Positions 6,134 to 14,524 of a stretch of DNA of 36,066 nucleotides are shown here, in pieces (the stretch's first letter is position 1; the number at the start of each line of letters is the position of its first letter). The stretch is taken from contig JACIWU010000026.1 of assembly GCA_014360805.1 (NCBI GenBank), forward strand, positions 1 to 36,066, read 5' to 3'. The position numbers and the translations under genes were made by a program. The notes beneath the pieces were generated by a model. That model was not told where the DNA came from, did not search any database, and saw only the letters and a list, made by a program, of their open reading frames with translations. Source of the stretch: Chloroflexota bacterium (GTDB lineage: Bacteria > Chloroflexota > Anaerolineae > DTLA01).

Positions 6134-6878
6134 GTGGGGTCGGCTCGTTTCCCTGGCGCGACGCCGCGCCGAGTCGCCTGAAGCCTACAGGCGGTTTCAG
6201 GCGCAGCAGGGGCGGATGGTCCTGGCCCGCCTGGAGGCCAAAGGCTTGAGCGTCGCGGGCCGCCGCGTGCTGGACCTGGGATGCGGCCTGGGGGGATACA
6301 CAGAGGCGCTGCGCGAGCGGGGCGCGTGGGTTGTGGCCGCCGACCTGTCCGCGCGCACCCTGGCGGAACTGGACAGCACGTCGCCGCGGGTGTGCGCCGA
6401 CGCGCTGGCCCTGCCGTTCGCGGACGATACGTTTGACCTGGTGTTCTGCGCGAGCCTGATAGAGCATGTGGACGACGGCCCCGCGCTGCTGCAAGGGGTG
6501 CTGCGCGTGGTGCGCGCCGGCGGATACGGCTACGTGAGTTTTCCCCCGTTCTACAGCCCGCGGGGCGGCCATCAGTTTGCGCCCTATCACTTGCTGGGCG
6601 AGCGCGTCGCCACGTGGCTCTACCTGCTTACGCGCGCCCGCCGGATTCCGGCGTGGCAGCGGAGCATCGTGGCCGAGGGCGGTTCGTACAGCCGCGCGTA
6701 CCACGGGTTTGGGCTTCACCGCGTAACCATCGCCGCGGCCCGACGGTGGGCCGTCCATGCGGGTTGGGAAGTGGTATCTCTGTCCACGCGATTCTCGCCG
6801 GTGAACACGGCCCGATGGCTGGTCATCGGCGAGTTCCTCACCTGGCACGCAGAGTTTTTGCTTCGGAAGCCGCCATGA
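6126..6878 (+). CDS. Class I SAM-dependent methyltransferase
   Basis: A 250-residue methyltransferase of the Methyltransf_11/25 type. The SAM-binding motif I VLDLGCGLGGYT lies at about residues 48-59, the acidic end of strand 2 in VAADLS at about 70-75, and FDLVFCASLIEHV around 105-117. A later GGHQFAPYHLL segment is common in methyltransferases of polysaccharide clusters. It presumably O-methylates a sugar of the glycan made by this operon (inference). It starts at a GTG and overlaps the upstream gene by 8 bases (GTGAGTGA) and the downstream gene by ATGA. Confidence 0.82.
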   Translation: MSEWGRLVSLARRRAESPEAYRRFQAQQGRMVLARLEAKGLSVAGRRVLDLGCGLGGYTEALRERGAWVVAADLSARTLAELDSTSPRVCADALALPFADDTFDLVFCASLIEHVDDGPALLQGVLRVVRAGGYGYVSFPPFYSPRGGHQFAPYHLLGERVATWLYLLTRARRIPAWQRSIVAEGGSYSRAYHGFGLHRVTIAAARRWAVHAGWEVVSLSTRFSPVNTARWLVIGEFLTWHAEFLLRKPP

Positions 6879-8590
6879 TTCTGTTCATCACGCGGAAGTA
6901 CCCGCCGTCGGTGGGCGGGATGGAGAAACTGAGTTATGAGATGACCCGCGCCGTGAGCGCCATCGTTCCGGCCCGCGTGATCGCGTGGCGCGGGCCGCGC
7001 TGGGGATGGCCGCTGTTCGCGGCGATGGCCTTCGCGCGCGGCCTGTGGGCGTGCATGACCGGCCCCGTGCGCTTCATCCACGTGAGCGATCCGGTGCTGG
7101 CGCCGTTGGGCCTGGCCCTGGCACGCCTGACGGGCCGCAGGTGGGGTCTCACCGCTCACGGGCTGGACATCCTGTACCCGCGGCGAATCTACCAGGCGGT
7201 GGTGCTCCCGTGCGTGCGCCGCGCGGATGTGGTTGTCGCCATCAGCCAGGCCGCGCGCGAAGCGTGTCTCGCGAAGGGCGTGGCCCCCGCCCGCTGCCGC
7301 GTGATTCCCATCGGCGTGCACGCGCCGGAGGAGCCGCCCGACCGCTACCTGGCGCGTGAGCGGCTTCGCCTGGCGCTGGCCCTGGAACTCCGCGACCGCC
7401 CCGTGCTCCTGATCGTCGGGCGGCTGGTGCCGCGCAAGGGCGTGGCCTGGTTTGTGTGCCAGGTGTTGCCCTTGCTGGCCCAGGTGCAGCCCGACGCGAT
7501 TTGCCTCGTTGTGGGGGATGGCCCCGAGCGGCACACCGTGCGCCGCATCATCCGCGAGGGCAAGATGCACGAGCGCGTGGTGCTCCTGGGGCGCGTGTCG
7601 GATACGATCCTGGCCGACCTGTACGCGGCCGCCACGCTGTTCCTGATGCCCAACGTCCCCGTGCCTGGCGACATGGAGGGATTTGGCATCGTGGCGTTGG
7701 AGGCGGCGTCGCGCGGGCTGCCCGTGGTGGCCTCGCGGCTGGAGGGCATTCCCGACGCGGTGGTGGACGGCGAGAACGGCGTGCTTGTTCCGCCGCTGGA
7801 CGCGCAGGCTTGGGTGTCGGCGATCCACCGTCTGCTCTCCGATGGCGCGGCGCGGGCAGACCTGGCGGCGCGGGCGCGGGAGTTCACACGGTCGCGCTAC
7901 CGCTGGGATACCCTGGCGCGGGAGTACGTCCGGGCCTTCGGGTTGGAATCCGAGCGCGGGCAGGCCCAGTGGGATGAGGCCTACCTTCACGTGCGGCGCG
8001 GCGAAGGGCGCAGACTCCGACGGCTGCGCGCCTTCGGGTTCTCGCCCGAATGGCGGATTCTGGACTACGGGTGCGGCGACGGCATCAATACGCGCCTGCT
8101 GGTCGGCTTGGGCTGCCGCCGCGTGGTGAGCATGGACTATTCGCTGCGCCTGCTCCGTGCGGGCCGCCCGCCCTGCCCCGTGGCAGCCGACGGGATGCGC
8201 ATGCCCTTCGCCGATGGCGCGTTTGACGCCGTGCTGGTGGACGGCGTGCTGCATCACCTGGACGCACAGGCGGCGCTCGCCGAGATCGCCCGCGTGCTGC
8301 GCCCTGGGGGGATGCTGGGCGTGGTGGAGCCGGCCGGGTCGTGGGCGCGCCGTGCGTTGGACGCGCTCACCTTCTCGCCGCTGGGCTTGCTGTGGAGCGA
8401 GACGCGGCACCGACGCACGAGCCTGGCCGAGGAGTGGGCTACGTACCAGGCATGGCTGCAGGTGGAACGCGCCCTGCCGGACTGGGTGCGGGCCGCGGGG
8501 CTGGAGGTTCGCTCCGTGCGCCGTACCGCGCTGAATGTGATGCTTGTGGCCGTGCGTCCAGGCCCGGCCGCGCAAGAGGACGCGAGGTAG
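6875..8590 (+). CDS. Bifunctional fusion: GT4 glycosyltransferase plus class I SAM methyltransferase
   Basis: A 571-residue two-domain protein. Residues 1-355 are a GT-B fold family 4 glycosyltransferase: the N-terminal YPPSVGGMEKLS loop (about 9-20), LIVGRLVPRKGV (about 179-190), VVGDGPE (about 212-218) and the donor-binding EX7E motif EGFGIVALE (Glu268 and Glu276). Residues 375-571 are a methyltransferase with motif I ILDYGCGDG (about 395-403), SMDYS (about 419-423) and a VLRPGG motif (about 474-479). There is no stop or frameshift at the junction, so the fusion is real in this sequence. The likely role is to transfer a sugar and methylate it or a neighbour, perhaps capping the chain (inference). 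It is the last gene of the operon; a strong hairpin follows 16 bases after its stop codon. Confidence 0.87.
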   Translation: MILFITRKYPPSVGGMEKLSYEMTRAVSAIVPARVIAWRGPRWGWPLFAAMAFARGLWACMTGPVRFIHVSDPVLAPLGLALARLTGRRWGLTAHGLDILYPRRIYQAVVLPCVRRADVVVAISQAAREACLAKGVAPARCRVIPIGVHAPEEPPDRYLARERLRLALALELRDRPVLLIVGRLVPRKGVAWFVCQVLPLLAQVQPDAICLVVGDGPERHTVRRIIREGKMHERVVLLGRVSDTILADLYAAATLFLMPNVPVPGDMEGFGIVALEAASRGLPVVASRLEGIPDAVVDGENGVLVPPLDAQAWVSAIHRLLSDGAARADLAARAREFTRSRYRWDTLAREYVRAFGLESERGQAQWDEAYLHVRRGEGRRLRRLRAFGFSPEWRILDYGCGDGINTRLLVGLGCRRVVSMDYSLRLLRAGRPPCPVAADGMRMPFADGAFDAVLVDGVLHHLDAQAALAEIARVLRPGGMLGVVEPAGSWARRALDALTFSPLGLLWSETRHRRTSLAEEWATYQAWLQVERALPDWVRAAGLEVRSVRRTALNVMLVAVRPGPAAQEDAR

Positions 8591-8605
8591 TTCAAGAGCA
8601 GCGCA

Positions 8606-8640
8606 AAGACCCCAAGCGTCTCCGAGACTCTTGGGGTCTT
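8606..8640 (+). terminator. Strong hairpin at the end of the glycan operon, probable terminator
   Basis: A perfect 11-base inverted repeat (AAGACCCCAAG at 8606-8616 and CTTGGGGTCTT at 8630-8640) encloses a 13-base loop that can itself form a small GTCT/AGAC stem. It begins 16 bases after the stop of the last glycan gene. There is no long T run on the + strand, so termination may rely on the stem alone. Confidence 0.7.
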
Positions 8641-8655
8641 CACACTCGTGGGGTG

Positions 8656-8744
8656 CTTGACCTCACCTATCTCCTTCCACGCCCTCCCCTTCCCTTACTG
8701 CGCGCGAAGAGGGAAGGGCCGGGGTGGAGATGCGTGAGGTCAAG
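8656..8744. repeat. Imperfect palindromic intergenic element with 11-base perfect ends
   Basis: CTTGACCTCAC at 8656-8666 is matched by its reverse complement at 8734-8744. The interior is also partly self-complementary: a C/T-rich left half (about 8671-8697) faces an A/G-rich right half (about 8706-8730). The unit is therefore one long imperfect hairpin of 89 bases. A related piece (ACCTCACC followed later by GGAGATG) occurs at the end of the window near 36001-36055, which suggests a dispersed repeat. Confidence 0.6.
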
Positions 8745-8810
8745 CGTGTAGGGTAGCTTTCCATACCCGCCGGAGGGAGAGGGCAGGCACGGAAACCTGC
8801 CCCGACGCAC
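8745..8810. repeat. Degenerate member of the two-armed palindromic repeat family
   Basis: The order GTAGGG, TTTCCATACC, a G-rich spacer, then GGCAGG, ACGGAAA, CCTGCC follows the two-hairpin layout of the copies at 14538, 14628 and 20573. Arm 1 is GGGTA/TACCC (8751-8755 and 8764-8768). Arm 2 is GGGCAGG/CCTGCCC (8781-8787 and 8796-8802). The sequence is diverged, with the arms partly exchanged. Confidence 0.5.
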
Positions 8811-8859
8811 TGCCTTATTCTCGCCCCAGGACGGCAATGCGCCCAAGGGCCTCCCCTCG

Positions 8860-8889
8860 TTGACAAACGCGGCGCACCTGTGTTACGAT
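8860..8889 (+). promoter_or_regulatory. Sigma70-type promoter for the 8928-11583 cassette
   Basis: A perfect -35 TTGACA lies at 8860-8865. A -10 TTACGA at 8883-8888 gives a 17-base spacer; reading it one base later (TACGAT, 8884-8889) gives an 18-base spacer. Transcription would start near 8896, about 30 bases before the GTG at 8928. This placement supports the short start over the longer open frame from 8880, which would begin inside the promoter. Confidence 0.65.
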
Positions 8890-8927
8890 ACCCTCGCAGG
8901 TTTGGACGCATACATAGGGGGTGCGTC

Positions 8928-9983
8928 GTGAGGCGACCGGTCGCGCGGGGTCCGTATAGGGCTGCCATCAGAATCACAAGCGGAGCGCTGGTATCTGGCG
9001 CGGCCTGGACGGACGTCCTCCGCCGCTGGCGGGATGAGGCTGCCAGCGCGTTGGACAATGCGGGAAGGCTGCTCGGGGGAATGTGGGCGCGCCATCACCC
9101 CTCGGCTGCGACTGTTCTGCGCCTGCCTTTGGTGCGCCATTTCTCGGCCTGGTATGCCGCGCAGCCCAATTACGTGCAGATGGGCCTCAACGTCATCTCG
9201 CTCGCCATGGCATTGCTGCTGGCCGTGGCCGCGGGGTATCTCGGCTTGCGCCCGCCCTCCGCGCTCACGGCCAAGGCCCAGGCCCCCACGCACGAGTTGG
9301 CCGCCATCCTGTACGGGTGGATGGATCAGCGGCCCGCCCTGCCGTCCGCCGACTGCGGCCCATTTGAACCCGCTGCCGCATGTCGGGCGCGGCAGGCCGC
9401 CGACGTCGCGCAGTGGGAAAGCCGCTTTGCCGAGTACGTGCGCATAATCCAGGCGGAACAGGAGCGCGCGGAGTGGGTTCACGATGGCAAGGACTTCCCC
9501 ACCTACAACCGAGACACTGGCGTTATCACCTTCACGCTCGCTTTGCAAGGCGCGGTGCGGGCCGACGAGAAGAATTGTCTCCCGTTCCGAATCATCGCGC
9601 AGGTGCCTTCGGGGATCACCACAGGCCCCTGGCCCGACCAGGGGGGCCAAGCGAAGGCCAACACGGACATACGGCAACGATTGCGGGAGGTGGCCGTCAA
9701 GCCCAAACCGTTCCCGCACCCATGCCTGCGCACGGCGCAGTGGACGGCGTGGGCGCGCGTGGAACCCGAGACGGCGCAGGTGTGGGCGGCCTGGGCCAAG
9801 GACAAGGGCTGGAAACTGGAGATGTTCTTCCACCTGGACAACGCGGAATGCCCCCTCGCGCCCAACTGGGACGAGGACGCTCGCCTGACCAAGCAGGACT
9901 TTGCCGAGGAGCAGCGCATCTGGCTGTGGGTAGATGAGGTGCGGCTGGCCATCGGCGACGCGATCGTGCAGCGGTGGCGGTGA
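8928..9983 (+). CDS. Single-pass membrane protein of unknown function
   Basis: A 351-residue protein that I do not recognise. A basic N-terminal region of about 80 residues precedes one clear membrane helix (about residues 86-107). A soluble C-terminal domain of about 240 residues follows, rich in Trp and charged residues, with several Cys (CGPFEPAAAC at about 143-152, then NCLPF, HPCL and ECPL) that could form disulfides if the domain lies outside the membrane. The start is GTG 8928, preceded by AGGGGG at 8916-8921 with suitable spacing; the frame is open from 8880 but that would begin inside the promoter. It overlaps the next gene by GTGA and is first in a coupled three-gene unit. Confidence 0.65.
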   Translation: MRRPVARGPYRAAIRITSGALVSGAAWTDVLRRWRDEAASALDNAGRLLGGMWARHHPSAATVLRLPLVRHFSAWYAAQPNYVQMGLNVISLAMALLLAVAAGYLGLRPPSALTAKAQAPTHELAAILYGWMDQRPALPSADCGPFEPAAACRARQAADVAQWESRFAEYVRIIQAEQERAEWVHDGKDFPTYNRDTGVITFTLALQGAVRADEKNCLPFRIIAQVPSGITTGPWPDQGGQAKANTDIRQRLREVAVKPKPFPHPCLRTAQWTAWARVEPETAQVWAAWAKDKGWKLEMFFHLDNAECPLAPNWDEDARLTKQDFAEEQRIWLWVDEVRLAIGDAIVQRWR

Positions 9984-10696
9984 GGCGCATGAGACCAGGG
10001 GCGAAGACCCTGCGGGTGTTGACCCTCAGCGACGAGGTGGTGCAATCCATCCACACTCCCGCCGTGCGCGAGCGCTTCGGCGACGTGGACATCGTCATCG
10101 GCTGCGGCGACCTCCCGCACGAGTACCTGGAATACGTGGTGAGCGTCCTGAACAAACCCCTGTTCTTCGTGCGCGGCAACCACACCTGCGTCGTGGAATA
10201 CTCGGAGACCGGCGAACGCCCCCTTGTCCATGGCGGCGTGAACCTGCATCGCCGCGTCGTCAACTACCACGGGTGGCTGATCGCAGGCGTGGAGGGGAGC
10301 GTGCGCTACAATCGGGGGATGTTCCAGTACACGCAGATGGAGATGTGGGGGCACGTGCTGCGCCTTGTGCCGGCCCTCCTGCGCAACCGCATCCGGTACG
10401 GCCGCTACCTGGACGTTTTCGTTACGCACGCCCCACCGTGGGGTATTCACGACCAGCCCGACCCCGCGCATCGCGGCATCAAGGCGTTCCGCTGGTTTGT
10501 GCGGGCCTTTCGCCCTGCGGTGCACTTTCACGGTCACAGCCACGTGTACCGCTCGGACACGATCACGGAGACGCAGTTCCACGCCACGCGCGTGATCAAC
10601 ACGTACCCCTATCGGGAGACGGAACTGGGACATCCTACGACGCGGCCTGCCCTGCCACAGTTTGCAGGCGGCCGCCAGAAGCGAGGCACACGATGA
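9980..10696 (+). CDS. Calcineurin-like metallophosphoesterase with a variant first metal motif
   Basis: A 238-residue phosphoesterase of the calcineurin-like superfamily. The ordered motifs are visible: GCGDLP (about 41-46), RGNHT (about 65-69), VTHAPPWG (about 148-155) and HFHGHSH (about 182-188). The first motif, normally D-x-H, is SDEV here (Asp18, with Val20 in place of His), so one usual metal ligand is missing or supplied differently. The substrate (nucleotide, phospholipid or protein phosphate) cannot be told. GTG 9980 overlaps the upstream stop as GTGA. ATG 9989 is a possible alternative, but its GAGG is only three bases away. It ends with an ATGA overlap. Confidence 0.8.
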   Translation: MRRMRPGAKTLRVLTLSDEVVQSIHTPAVRERFGDVDIVIGCGDLPHEYLEYVVSVLNKPLFFVRGNHTCVVEYSETGERPLVHGGVNLHRRVVNYHGWLIAGVEGSVRYNRGMFQYTQMEMWGHVLRLVPALLRNRIRYGRYLDVFVTHAPPWGIHDQPDPAHRGIKAFRWFVRAFRPAVHFHGHSHVYRSDTITETQFHATRVINTYPYRETELGHPTTRPALPQFAGGRQKRGTR

Positions 10697-11583
10697 CCTT
10701 GGACCATCTAGCCCAAGAGGACTTTCAGCGCGCCCGAAGCAAAGCCTTCTGGAATCGGATCGTGGGCTGGCTCATGGGCGAACAAACCGACTTGCTCCCG
10801 CTGGACGCCGTCAAGGCGCACCTGCCCCTCCAGGGGCAGCACGACCTCGGCCTTCAGGCCGTGCCCATCCGCCAGATTGTCGGCAGCGAGAGCCGCTACC
10901 GCGACTTTGACCGCGCCTTCCTCCCGCGCCAGACGCACACGCGCGACCGTTGGGTTAACATTGATCGGCTGCACTACCAGCAGGTTGAATTGCCACCGGT
11001 GAGTCTGTACAAGGTTGGCGACATCTACTTCGTGCGCGACGGCAACCATCGCGTTTCCGTCGCCCGCGAACGCGGCCAGGAATTCGTGGACGCCTACGTA
11101 ACCGAACTGGCCACGCCCGTGCCCCTGACCCCGGATACAGATTTGCACAGCCTCATCCTGGAGCAGGAGCGGGTCATTTTCCTCCAGCAGACCGGACTGG
11201 ATAGAATACGGCCCGACGCGGATGTGCGCCTGACCCTCCCCGGCCAGTACGCGAAACTTGCCGAGCATATCCAGGTGCACCGCTGGTTTCTCGGCCAGGA
11301 GCGCGGCGGAGACGTGCCCTACGAGGAAGCCGTGGCGTCATGGTACGATCACGTGTACCTGCCGCTGGTGCAGATTATTCGCGAGCATCAGATTCTGAAC
11401 GAGTTCCCAGGCCGCACCGAGGCCGACCTCTACCTGTGGATCATTGAACACAGTTGGTATCTGCGCGAGGCGGGCGGCGAGATTCCCATGGAGCAGGCAG
11501 CCACCGACTTCGCCCGCGCCTATTCCCGCAGGCTGCTCACCAAACTCAAGAACCTTCTGCGACGTGCCGCTCGCAAGCGATGA
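10693..11583 (+). CDS. ParB/sulfiredoxin-fold domain protein (DUF4032-like), function unknown
   Basis: A 296-residue cytoplasmic protein. Residues about 95-140 hold a ParB/Srx-type core, with the diagnostic YFVRDGNHRVSVARERG (DGNHR at 116-120) followed by a strand VDAYVTEL. In ParB the equivalent motif binds and hydrolyses CTP; in sulfiredoxin it binds ATP. The C-terminal half is mostly helical, with EFPGRTEADLYLWIIEH around residues 240-256 and a strongly basic tail (KLKNLLRRAARKR). It resembles DUF4032-type proteins, from memory only. No helix-turn-helix of a chromosomal ParB is evident and no parA is nearby, so plasmid partition is unlikely. It overlaps the phosphoesterase gene by ATGA. 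Confidence 0.65.
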   Translation: MTLDHLAQEDFQRARSKAFWNRIVGWLMGEQTDLLPLDAVKAHLPLQGQHDLGLQAVPIRQIVGSESRYRDFDRAFLPRQTHTRDRWVNIDRLHYQQVELPPVSLYKVGDIYFVRDGNHRVSVARERGQEFVDAYVTELATPVPLTPDTDLHSLILEQERVIFLQQTGLDRIRPDADVRLTLPGQYAKLAEHIQVHRWFLGQERGGDVPYEEAVASWYDHVYLPLVQIIREHQILNEFPGRTEADLYLWIIEHSWYLREAGGEIPMEQAATDFARAYSRRLLTKLKNLLRRAARKR

Positions 11584-11636
11584 GATTTTCGGCCTGCATG
11601 GGAAGGGCCGCCGCGCAGTGGGGCCGGCCCTGCGTT

Positions 11637-11653
11637 CGGGCCTGCGAGGCCCG
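11637..11653. other. Short GC-rich hairpin ahead of the 11675 gene
   Basis: CGGGCCT and AGGCCCG form a perfect 7-base stem with a GCG loop. It lies between the ParB-fold gene and the following ribosome binding site (AGGAGG, 11663-11668). It could be a weak terminator or an RNA-stabilising element. There is no T run. Confidence 0.4.
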
Positions 11654-11674
11654 CGAGATTCCAGGAGGTGAGGC

Positions 11675-12550
11675 ATGGTCATATCCAGTTCGTCCATGGA
11701 GCGGACGGCGCAGACCGCCGCCAAGTTGGAGGCAGTCAAGACGCTAGACCGCCTGGTGGAGGAAGGCGCGAAGACTCCGGAGGAAGTGGCCGCGGAGAGG
11801 GAGCGCCTGCTGAAACAACCCGCCCGCAAGCGATGGCGGGTGAACATGCGCGTCCTGCTGGGAACGCTGCTGTTCATTGCCTTGGCGATGGCGGCGTTGC
11901 GGGCGGCTGCCGAGCCGAACGGCCTGGCTTGGCTGTTCGCCGTGGTCCCTGCGGCAGCCGTGGCCGGAGACATCGCCACCGTGCTGGGGCCGCTGCTCGC
12001 CGTGTCGGTGGCGGTGGAGCGGCTCCTGGAGACCGCATTTGACGCCTTTGAGCAGTCGTCGCGGGCGGTGGCCGATGTGCTGGCGGCCCCCAAGGAGGCG
12101 CTGGACTGGATCGGGCGCGAATACCAGGCCGCATACGAGGCGGCTGCGGCAGCGGCAAGCGCGGTCGGGGAGGGAGCGTCCGACGAGGCGCTGGCCCGGC
12201 TGGCCGCCGCCGAATCGCGCCTGGCGCAGGCCGAGGCCCGCGTGCGCGCCTGGACCTCCGCGCCGGAATACATCGCCTGGAAGCGCGCGTTGTGCATCTG
12301 GGCCGGCCTGGTCGTGGGGTTGGGCGTGGCCATCTTCGGCGACCTGGGGATGCTGCACATCATCGGGGCCCCGACCCCGCGCCTGCTGGACATGATCGTT
12401 ACGGGCTTGGTCATCGGCGCTGGCCCCGGGCCGATGCACGCGCTCATCGGCATCATCCAGAGCGGCAAGGACGCGGCCAACAACCTGGCGGATCTGGCGA
12501 AGAGCAAAGCGGCGGAACTGAAGGCGGCCGCCGACGCGCTGAAGAAGTAG
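11675..12550 (+). CDS. Polytopic membrane protein of unknown function with central coiled-coil segment
   Basis: A 291-residue protein that I do not recognise. A charged N-terminal region (residues 1-56) precedes a hydrophobic helix at about 58-78 and a longer hydrophobic stretch at about 86-113. Residues about 115-205 are Ala/Glu/Arg-rich and probably coiled coil. Two more hydrophobic segments lie at about 205-222 and 238-262, followed by a Lys/Ala-rich amphipathic tail. The start is well supported by AGGAGG at 11663-11668, six bases before the ATG. It lies 91 bases after the ParB-fold gene and converges with the minus-strand gene that ends at 12570. It may be part of the same transcription unit as the 8928 cassette, but the hairpin between them weakens that. 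Confidence 0.65.
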   Translation: MVISSSSMERTAQTAAKLEAVKTLDRLVEEGAKTPEEVAAERERLLKQPARKRWRVNMRVLLGTLLFIALAMAALRAAAEPNGLAWLFAVVPAAAVAGDIATVLGPLLAVSVAVERLLETAFDAFEQSSRAVADVLAAPKEALDWIGREYQAAYEAAAAAASAVGEGASDEALARLAAAESRLAQAEARVRAWTSAPEYIAWKRALCIWAGLVVGLGVAIFGDLGMLHIIGAPTPRLLDMIVTGLVIGAGPGPMHALIGIIQSGKDAANNLADLAKSKAAELKAAADALKK

Positions 12551-12569
12551 CGTACAGGCTGCCGCGCCC

Positions 12570-13148
12570 TTATTCCAGACCCTGCGACAGCGACGGGAAG
12601 CGGTCGGCGATGCGCGCCAACACGTTGCGGGCCTCAACGGGCGTCAGTCCTGCGCCGAAGCGCACCGCGCTGCCGCCGTAGTCAAACGTCAGCGCGCCGG
12701 CCCACGGCCCTCGGGAACCGCCGTAGTCCTCGGAAACGCGCAGGCGGTCCACGTAGGCCGCCTCATACCGCTTGCGCGGGCCGATGCCCAGCACGGCCTT
12801 CTGGATGGTCAGCGACTCGCCGTCAATGACGACGACTTCCTTGCCCGCCAGGTTCCACAGCCAGACGAGCAGGGCGAACCCGCCGCCCACGGTCCACAGC
12901 GCAAGCCAGATGCCGATGAAGAGCAGGCCGGCCCCGCTGCCCATGTCGGGCGCTCGCCCCGCCAGGATGGCGGCCAGGCCCTCCACGAGTGTGGCTCCCA
13001 CGACGAGTTCGCCCGTCGCCCAGCCCGCAAGCCAGAACCCCAGGAACAGGACGATGAGCCAATGGCGGCGCGCCGGAATCGCGATTCGCAGCGCCGCAAA
13101 GGAGTCCTCTATCGTGTATCGCGGGGCGTCGGGCTGGAACTCGGCCAT
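12570..13148 (-). CDS. Two-helix membrane protein with PH-like C-terminal domain, function unknown
   Basis: A 192-residue protein. Two hydrophobic segments (about residues 30-48 and 74-98) sit before a compact beta-rich domain (about 103-185) that starts KEVVVIDGESLTIQKAVLGIG. This pattern is seen in small bacterial membrane proteins with PH-like domains (YdbT/DUF304-like); the match is by pattern only. The start is supported by AAGGA upstream on the minus strand. It lies 23 bases downstream of the DsbA-like lipoprotein gene on the same strand and probably shares its transcript. No catalytic motif is visible. Confidence 0.6.
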   Translation of the reverse strand: MAEFQPDAPRYTIEDSFAALRIAIPARRHWLIVLFLGFWLAGWATGELVVGATLVEGLAAILAGRAPDMGSGAGLLFIGIWLALWTVGGGFALLVWLWNLAGKEVVVIDGESLTIQKAVLGIGPRKRYEAAYVDRLRVSEDYGGSRGPWAGALTFDYGGSAVRFGAGLTPVEARNVLARIADRFPSLSQGLE

Positions 13149-13171: not shown

Positions 13172-14443
13172 CTACTTCTTCGCCAGTTCTTCCTCAATCA
13201 GTTCCTGGAACGCCTCAAACGGCTGCGCGCCGGTCAGTTTGATGCCGTTGACAAAGAACGCGGGGGTCCCGGTCACGCCATACGCTTGGCCGTCCGCCAT
13301 GTCCCCGGCCACCTCCTCGGCCATCGCGCCCGAATCCAGACAGGCGTCAAACTGGGCCGAGTCCAGGCCCAGGTCTGCGGCGTACTGCTTCAGCGACGCC
13401 ACGTCCAGCGCGTCTTGGTGCGCAAACAGCAGGTCGTGATACTCCCAAAACTTGCCCTGCTGGGCGGCGCACCCCGCGGCCTCGGCAGCCTTCTGCGCAT
13501 TGGGGTGGATGGACGTCAAGGGGAAGTCACGGAAGACGTACTTTACCTTGCCCGTCTTGATGTAGGCCTCGTCAATCTGTGGAAAGACCTCGCGCACGTA
13601 GTACCCGCAATAGGGGCACTGGTACTCGCTGAACTCCACAATGGTTACCGGGGCGTCGGGCGACCCTTTGACCGGGTCATCGTCCAGGCTGACCTCATGC
13701 CGCCGGGGCGGGATAAACCTCAGGCTCGTCCCGATGCCGCGGAAGACCGCCGCATACCGATCGGCGATGTCGGCGTTGGTGGATAGGGTAACCACGTACA
13801 AGTCCGTCTTGCGCAAGGCCAGGTACTGAAAGATCTGCAATTCCAGCGGAGCGCCGCTCCTGTCGGTAACGCTGGCGCGGAAACTGACCTCCAGCGCCTG
13901 CCCTCCGGCTGCCAGGTCCGTGATCTGCGTCGCCACGGGTTTCTGGATGCTCTCGGTGTTTTCCAGTTGCGTCAGGACAAGTTGCCGAACCTGTTCCAGC
14001 GTAACGGTGGTGCCCATGCGCTGGCGCTGGACGCTGGCATCGGTCGCGCCGCCTGCCTTCAACGCCTCGGATGTGGGGTCAAACCCGAAGAACGACACGC
14101 CCGCGTTGATCAGCGCGATGGCTTCTCCCTGCACCAGGTCAGCCACATCGGGGTACTTCTCCTGGACGGCGGTTAGGCTCGCCTGGAAGTTCGCCGGGTC
14201 CATGTCCACGTTGCCCCATGTCGGGGGCAGGGCGATGGCAAACCGCTCGTCGGGGACCTCGTAAACGGGCCAGCCTTCGGTGGATGCGGACGGCGGCATG
14301 GTGGGGGTGGCCGCGGGTGCCGTCGCCGCTGGCGCGGGGGTGGGGGTGAGCGTGGGAGTCGGCGTCGGTGTGGGCTGGGCGCGGCAACCCGCCAGCAGGG
14401 CCAACAGGAGACCGGTGGCAATCAGCGCAAGTCGCTTGTTCAC
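13172..14443 (-). CDS. DsbA-like thiol-disulfide oxidoreductase lipoprotein
   Basis: A 423-residue exported lipoprotein. The signal peptide ends in a lipobox LLAGC (Cys20). A Thr/Pro-rich linker (about 24-50) leads to a domain of unrecognised family (about 57-245), then a thioredoxin-fold DsbA/Thioredoxin_4 domain (about 255-423). The redox motif is CPYC (Cys276 and Cys279), and TGTPAF (about 391-396) carries the cis-proline. It probably introduces or isomerises disulfides at the outer face of the membrane. The start is GTG 14443: it follows AAAGGA and begins the signal peptide directly, whereas the open frame to 14524 would prepend a non-signal stretch lying over the promoter. Two of the four GTCAC words in the window fall in this gene. 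Confidence 0.85.
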   Translation of the reverse strand: MNKRLALIATGLLLALLAGCRAQPTPTPTPTLTPTPAPAATAPAATPTMPPSASTEGWPVYEVPDERFAIALPPTWGNVDMDPANFQASLTAVQEKYPDVADLVQGEAIALINAGVSFFGFDPTSEALKAGGATDASVQRQRMGTTVTLEQVRQLVLTQLENTESIQKPVATQITDLAAGGQALEVSFRASVTDRSGAPLELQIFQYLALRKTDLYVVTLSTNADIADRYAAVFRGIGTSLRFIPPRRHEVSLDDDPVKGSPDAPVTIVEFSEYQCPYCGYYVREVFPQIDEAYIKTGKVKYVFRDFPLTSIHPNAQKAAEAAGCAAQQGKFWEYHDLLFAHQDALDVASLKQYAADLGLDSAQFDACLDSGAMAEEVAGDMADGQAYGVTGTPAFFVNGIKLTGAQPFEAFQELIEEELAKK

Positions 14444-14495
14444 AGTTCGTTTCCTTTCAGGCAGGTGTGGGTGTGGCAAATCCGCAAGCGTTGCT

Positions 14496-14524
14496 ATCTT
14501 ACCATGCGCGCACCGCCGCGTCAA
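14496..14524 (-). promoter_or_regulatory. Sigma70-type promoter for the DsbA-like lipoprotein gene
   Basis: On the minus strand, TTGACG (14524-14519) is separated by exactly 17 bases from TAAGAT (14501-14496). Transcription would start about 45 bases before the GTG. The -35 hexamer lies inside the left copy of the 22-base direct repeat at 14515-14536. Confidence 0.6.

Follow-up and report, generated by a model that had tools for sequence, protein, structure and literature searches.

A variant metallophosphoesterase gene paired with a ParB-fold gene across bacterial phyla, probably encoding a nucleotide-handling module

A gene for a variant metallophosphoesterase (MPE) and a gene for a ParB/Srx-fold protein are kept side by side in at least four bacterial phyla. 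Together they probably make up a module that handles nucleotides, is so far undescribed and plays no part in chromosome segregation. We describe it from a contig of a Chloroflexota bacterium (JACIWU010000026.1), of which the whole 36,066-nucleotide stretch analysed is termed the window. Here the MPE gene (P2) is followed directly by the ParB-fold gene (P3) and preceded by a gene for a membrane protein (P1). This three-gene cassette is an arrangement at the level of the genus only; the conserved unit is the P2–P3 pair. Recent work recognises the ParB-CTPase fold as a general module for NTP binding, most of whose roles beyond partition are not known. A pair present in four phyla, with a specific single-copy phosphoesterase and swapped nucleotide-linked domains, offers a testable route to one function of the ParB fold, and a functional lead for DUF4032, the C-terminal domain family of P3. 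Literature searches found no paper describing the MPE–ParB pair, none relevant to the combination of ParB, BMP and MPE, and none on DUF4032 or on the defence candidate PDC-S10 considered below.

P2 (238 aa; 9980–10696, forward strand) is by its sequence a variant within the calcineurin-like metallophosphoesterase superfamily. It matches the Pfam family Metallophos, PF00149 (E 5.5e-9; 37.2 bits against a gathering threshold of 21.5), and Foldseek matches of its AF2 model (pLDDT 90.9) include aq_1956, MPPED2 and TT1561 (E 5e-9), which bears out the class assigned to it in the initial annotation, with a variant motif I. The five canonical motifs of PF00149 (DxH / GDxxD / GNH / H / GHxH) are not all present in the P2 subfamily: the motif-I His is replaced by V, E, I, A or R, and motif II mostly lacks its second Asp, while the remaining metal ligands are kept. 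P2 itself has V in place of the His and retains D18, D44, N67, H68, H150, H186 and H188. Among 57 relatives the first six of these are kept and H188 mostly so, and the motif-I His is never present. MPPED2, aq_1956, TT1561 and YfcE share the fold and most metal ligands with P2; the subfamily differs from them in lacking the motif-I His throughout and in having the additional invariants C42, Y49, Y110, D145, H164, H184, T203 and N207, of which C42 and T203 are absent from some members in other phyla. MPPED2 was the only match when PDB sequences were searched with an MPE profile, and P2 scores 12 bits against the YfcE phosphodiesterase model TIGR00040, below the NCBIfam cut-off of 56.25.

P3 (296 aa; 10693–11583, forward strand) combines two domains. 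The first, a ParB/Srx-fold domain at approximately residues 48–140 (10834–11112), is delimited by AF2 secondary structure and Foldseek; the model (pLDDT 95.7) matches Noc/ParB, sulfiredoxin and SbnI, and a PDB sequence search gave no significant relative. The DGNHR motif (Box-II GxxR; residues 116–120, 11038–11052), which had been called intact from the sequence together with the fold, is indeed so: in 68 of 68 Chloroflexota homologues D116, G117, H119 and R120 are invariant and position 118 is N or H. Lack of a nucleotide pocket in this domain had been named as grounds for abandoning the nucleotide idea; the pocket appears to be retained, with an invariant Box-II GxxR and a fold that matches CDP-, CTP- and ATP-bound structures. 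G117 and R120 are invariant across phyla as well. The motif reads EGNKR instead of DGNHR in the relatives from Collinsella and Subdoligranulum, so pocket chemistry is not uniform in the family. The second domain, helical and DUF4032-like, covers approximately residues 151–280 (11143–11532) and had gone unmentioned. It is divergent and matches the C-terminal part only of the PF13224 profile (E 3.2e-9; 37.3 bits against a cut-off of 23.8), with further support from a match in the same genome and from helices in the AF2 model. Pfam searches of 51 P3 homologues found DUF4032 in 36, a weak ParB_N match in two and an HTH family in none.

Several described proteins resemble P3 in part. The orphan ParB-CTPase-fold fusion proteins presented in the main text of Kaljevic et al. 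2025 (PMC12704722) likewise have a ParB/Srx fold with a GxxR Box II, lack a ParA, are fused to lineage-specific domains and are expected to bind CTP, ATP or GTP. That text reports binding of CTP, ATP or GTP by those proteins of this fold that were tested, with a specificity not predictable from sequence. P3 is set apart from the proteins it describes by a dedicated partner, the MPE; the main text makes no mention of Chloroflexota, phosphoesterases or universal stress proteins, and DUF4032 is not among the DUFs it names. Sulfiredoxin shares the fold (2.7 Å over 83 columns, Foldseek); P3 was rejected as a sulfiredoxin since the catalytic Cys of GCHR is absent, position 118 being N or H in all 68 sequences. 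Other DUF4032 proteins, such as one with a Kdo/WaaP-kinase-DUF4032 architecture (locus L084), share the C-terminal helical domain. In P3, by contrast, the ParB fold replaces the kinase-like N-terminus, and the alignment to PF13224 is confined to the C-terminal part of the profile.

Of the named Chloroflexota loci that could be scored, 65 of 79 have the MPE gene immediately upstream of the ParB gene. They come from a set of 80 that was selected in a GTDB scan for resemblance to P3 and is thus biased towards its clade; those with the pair include Bellilinea, Chloroflexus islandicus, Herpetosiphon, a Roseiflexaceae MAG and Thermoflexus. Genome surveys, in which many genomes are MAGs, found P3 relatives in 144 of 301 genomes of the phylum and 47 of 60 of the class, and the MPE subfamily in 43 of those 60, with one copy per genome. 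Both genes occur in 42 of the 60 class genomes, ParB alone in five, MPE alone in one and neither in 12 (Fisher p 5e-8); with one genome per family the corresponding counts are 29, 4, 1 and 8 (p 3e-5). A comparison of match coordinates in the 42 genomes with both genes places the MPE gene immediately upstream, on the same strand, in 21; in the other half the two are not adjacent. The MPE-linked label can be mapped onto the ParB tree with 7 changes, where shuffled labels take 42, and the P3 of the window falls inside the MPE-linked clade; the UspA-fused relatives require 3 changes and form mostly separate lineages. The co-occurrence expected initially for all three genes fails for P1, which is confined to the genus, and clearly holds for P2 and P3.

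In two loci (L093 and L103) the MPE–ParB pair converges on a ParB-UspA fusion gene, placing two versions of the protein side by side. In four more loci (L056, L057, L065 and L085), pyruvate kinase is encoded immediately downstream of other ParB-DUF4032 relatives.

Outside Chloroflexota an MPE of the same subfamily adjoins a ParB-like gene in Tsukamurella and Collinsella (Actinomycetota, the latter in Coriobacteriia), two Cetobacterium (Fusobacteriota) and Subdoligranulum (Bacillota). This cross-phylum set is small, comprising five plasmid records, four of them found with P3 (at least 60% of P3 covered) and Subdoligranulum through the MPE. The motif-I His is missing from every MPE in it. The ParB-BMP gene comes first in Collinsella and Subdoligranulum and overlaps the following MPE gene by 4 bases; the ORF upstream of the Subdoligranulum MPE encodes the same ParB-BMP protein as in Collinsella. 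In Tsukamurella and Cetobacterium the pairs belong to sugar-uptake/alpha-glucan operons, a context that could indicate a sugar phosphate substrate.

At the window locus the cassette has, as initially noted, a near-consensus promoter of its own: TTGACA (from 8860), an 18-nt spacer and TACGAT with an extended TG, ending at 8889, on the forward strand. It is the sole sigma-70-like site in 8400–12700, where 0.4 are expected. The promoter is conserved in two sister species (loci L031 and L032), making three species of the genus in all; the DNA further upstream in the sister species is unalignable. No RNA families were found in the region. The exact four-base overlaps reported between the genes stand for P2/P3 (ATGA, 10693–10696); for P1/P2 the overlap (GTGA, 9980–9983) depends on P2 starting at GTG 9980, and an in-frame alternative start, ATG 9989, gives none. 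Overlapping starts at both junctions are also available in both sister species.

P1 (8928–9983, forward strand; 351 aa) probably starts at GTG 8928 and not at 8880, since the latter start would overlap the −10 box. It was first described as an unrecognised single-pass membrane protein, and that description is upheld: one transmembrane helix is predicted at approximately residues 82–106, no match was found in Pfam, NCBIfam, PHROG or PADLOC, and a PDB sequence search gave no significant relative. Its N-terminus is Arg-rich, and the charge before the helix (12 K+R, 4 D+E) suggests a topology that is probably N-in/C-out. The C-terminal half, including Cys 143, 152, 217 and 266, is conserved in the three species. 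A search of 249 class genomes found the three genus members, one marginal match (E 7e-4) and no convincing relative outside the genus. On these grounds P1 was rejected as a core member of the module and is regarded as a genus-level addition to the older P2–P3 pair. The following gene, P4 (11675–12550, forward strand), encodes a predicted membrane protein that is a syntenic neighbour in the genus. It had been suggested as a possible member; a 56% identical relative in another genome (G016) is not adjacent to ParB or MPE genes, which argues against membership, and P4 is probably outside the module.

Fusions and recurrent neighbours point to the chemistry of the pair. Domains fused to P3 relatives are a pair of UspA domains (in two loci, L034 and L045), a LOG-type Lysine_decarbox/SLOG domain (L044), an alpha/beta hydrolase (L075) and, in two other records, a PnrA-like BMP; two relatives (L051 and L155) have a repeated DUF4032. 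One further locus (L099, 5263–6906) carries MPE and ParB-DUF4032 in a single ORF, which may be two overlapping proteins because a Shine-Dalgarno-like sequence precedes an internal ATG. Where the MPE has no adjacent ParB gene, LOG and/or prolyl-tRNA synthetase (ProS) is next in 11 of 20 loci. The LOG proteins score just under the TIGR00730 cut-off, and in the window's own genome LOG and ProS are on other contigs. The order MPE-LOG-ProS, with no ParB gene, occurs in L206–L219 and L225, from several Chloroflexota families. Characterised UspA, LOG and PnrA members bind or cleave nucleotides or nucleosides, LOG being a nucleoside-monophosphate phosphoribohydrolase family. Because P3 relatives are fused to UspA, LOG and PnrA-like domains and MPE genes often precede LOG, a nucleotide or a phosphate derived from a nucleoside is the most plausible kind of substrate. 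To this extent the partner domains agree with the original idea of membrane-tethered nucleotide signalling, in its nucleotide part and not in its membrane part.

From the genes, their folds and kept residues, the pairing across phyla and the partner domains, we infer nucleotide binding, a shared substrate and a direction of reaction. The nucleotide-linked partners, taken together with the NTP-binding ParB fold, lead us to favour an NTP-binding P3 with a phosphoesterase that shares its substrate. Quite possibly, although we hold this tentatively, P2 and P3 form a dedicated enzyme pair of ancient origin, in which a cytoplasmic NTP-binding ParB-fold sensor or enzyme and a phosphoesterase would act on a common nucleotide-type substrate. 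P3 would most likely bind an NTP (ATP or CTP) through its invariant DGNHR/GxxR pocket and couple binding to the helical DUF4032 domain, as a sensor or switch or as a phosphotransfer enzyme, with no role in DNA partitioning. P2, metal-dependent, would have as its substrate the small phosphorylated molecule that P3 handles, or the product of that molecule, and would thereby reset or complete the reaction. A bolder extension, which we consider distinctly unlikely, is a pan-bacterial nucleotide-signalling module, unrecognised until now, in which a ParB-fold protein with exchangeable UspA, LOG or PnrA-like sensors would make or sense a specific nucleotide and a dedicated phosphodiesterase with a His-less motif I would erase it; if true, the ParB fold would here serve outside partition, in a writer/eraser-like role.

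The main rival is that P3 is a SerK/SbnI-like kinase for a metabolite (an amino acid or a sugar) whose phosphate P2 removes. SerK (PMC5120207, PDB 5x0b) and SbnI (5ujd) share the ParB/Srx fold, with DGHHR in place of DGNHR, and small-molecule phosphotransfer by P3 is conceivable. SbnI is a close single-domain structural match (2.0 Å, 86 columns, 23% identity), SerK DGHHR aligns with P3 DGNHR in a profile alignment (22 columns, probability 39%), and the sugar operons of Tsukamurella and Cetobacterium would suit such a kinase. What weakens it is that, in sequence alignments, P3 relatives have no conserved acidic residue around the place of SerK Glu30, a residue present in the crystallised wild type and A or Q in other PDB entries: D71 is acidic in 63 of 68 Chloroflexota sequences and Ala in Collinsella and Subdoligranulum. 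P3 further differs in its MPE partner and in its C-terminal DUF4032, of which no counterpart was found in SerK, and we regard the kinase as unlikely. That P1 holds P2 and P3 in a complex at the membrane and relays an outside signal, close to the initial annotation, draws on the single promoter and overlapping starts conserved in three species and on the conserved C-terminal half of P1 with its four Cys. The near-absence of P1 outside the genus and the MPE–ParB pairs elsewhere with no membrane partner of its kind tell against tethering, which is improbable.

An alarmone module is very unlikely. In it, a ParB/UspA-type protein would sense by-products of ProS such as Ap4A, a compound that aminoacyl-tRNA synthetases produce, or another unusual nucleotide; the MPE would then cleave it and LOG would complete the process. 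The MPE-(ParB)-LOG-ProS gene order in several families and the UspA and LOG fusions fit this scheme, but ProS may be a mere stable neighbour, LOG and ProS are unlinked to the pair in the window's genome, and the ApaH-like nature of the MPE is only putative. We give little credence to P3 as a true ParB-type partition or transcription factor with P2 as an unrelated neighbour, despite its fold and the database name 'chromosome partitioning protein ParB' of the Tsukamurella relative. P3 has neither an HTH DNA-binding domain nor the ParB C-terminal dimerisation domain, DUF4032 being the only domain that Pfam finds, no parA was seen among the flanking genes scanned in the window or in the annotated plasmid neighbourhoods, and the pairing with an MPE in four phyla also tells against this reading; P3 was rejected as a canonical ParB. 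Equally hard to credit is anti-phage defence, suggested by a match of P2 to the PADLOC candidate PDC-S10 (E 4e-13), a model that also matches other MPE family members. The match is weak and superfamily-level, and the one-copy, vertically clustered gene pair is unlike defence islands. A phage or defence origin was likewise rejected: no P3 relative was found in 50,697 phage records, and four viral contigs match over short segments only.

The flanks of the cassette carry further features. One frame at 6614–8590 encodes a glycosyltransferase group 1 domain and a Methyltransf_11 domain, and is closed by a terminator-like hairpin at 8606–8640 on the forward strand (17-nt arms, 94% complementary; RNA fold −25.3 kcal/mol, z −4.3). 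On the reverse strand at 13172–14524 lies a gene for a DsbA-like thioredoxin domain protein, near the Cys-containing P1. Just upstream of the cassette, at 8655–8745, is a palindrome with 36-nt arms (81% complementary; fold z −5.9); it is REP/MITE-like, with about 10 more dispersed copies or fragments in the genome at 71–92% identity over the matched parts.
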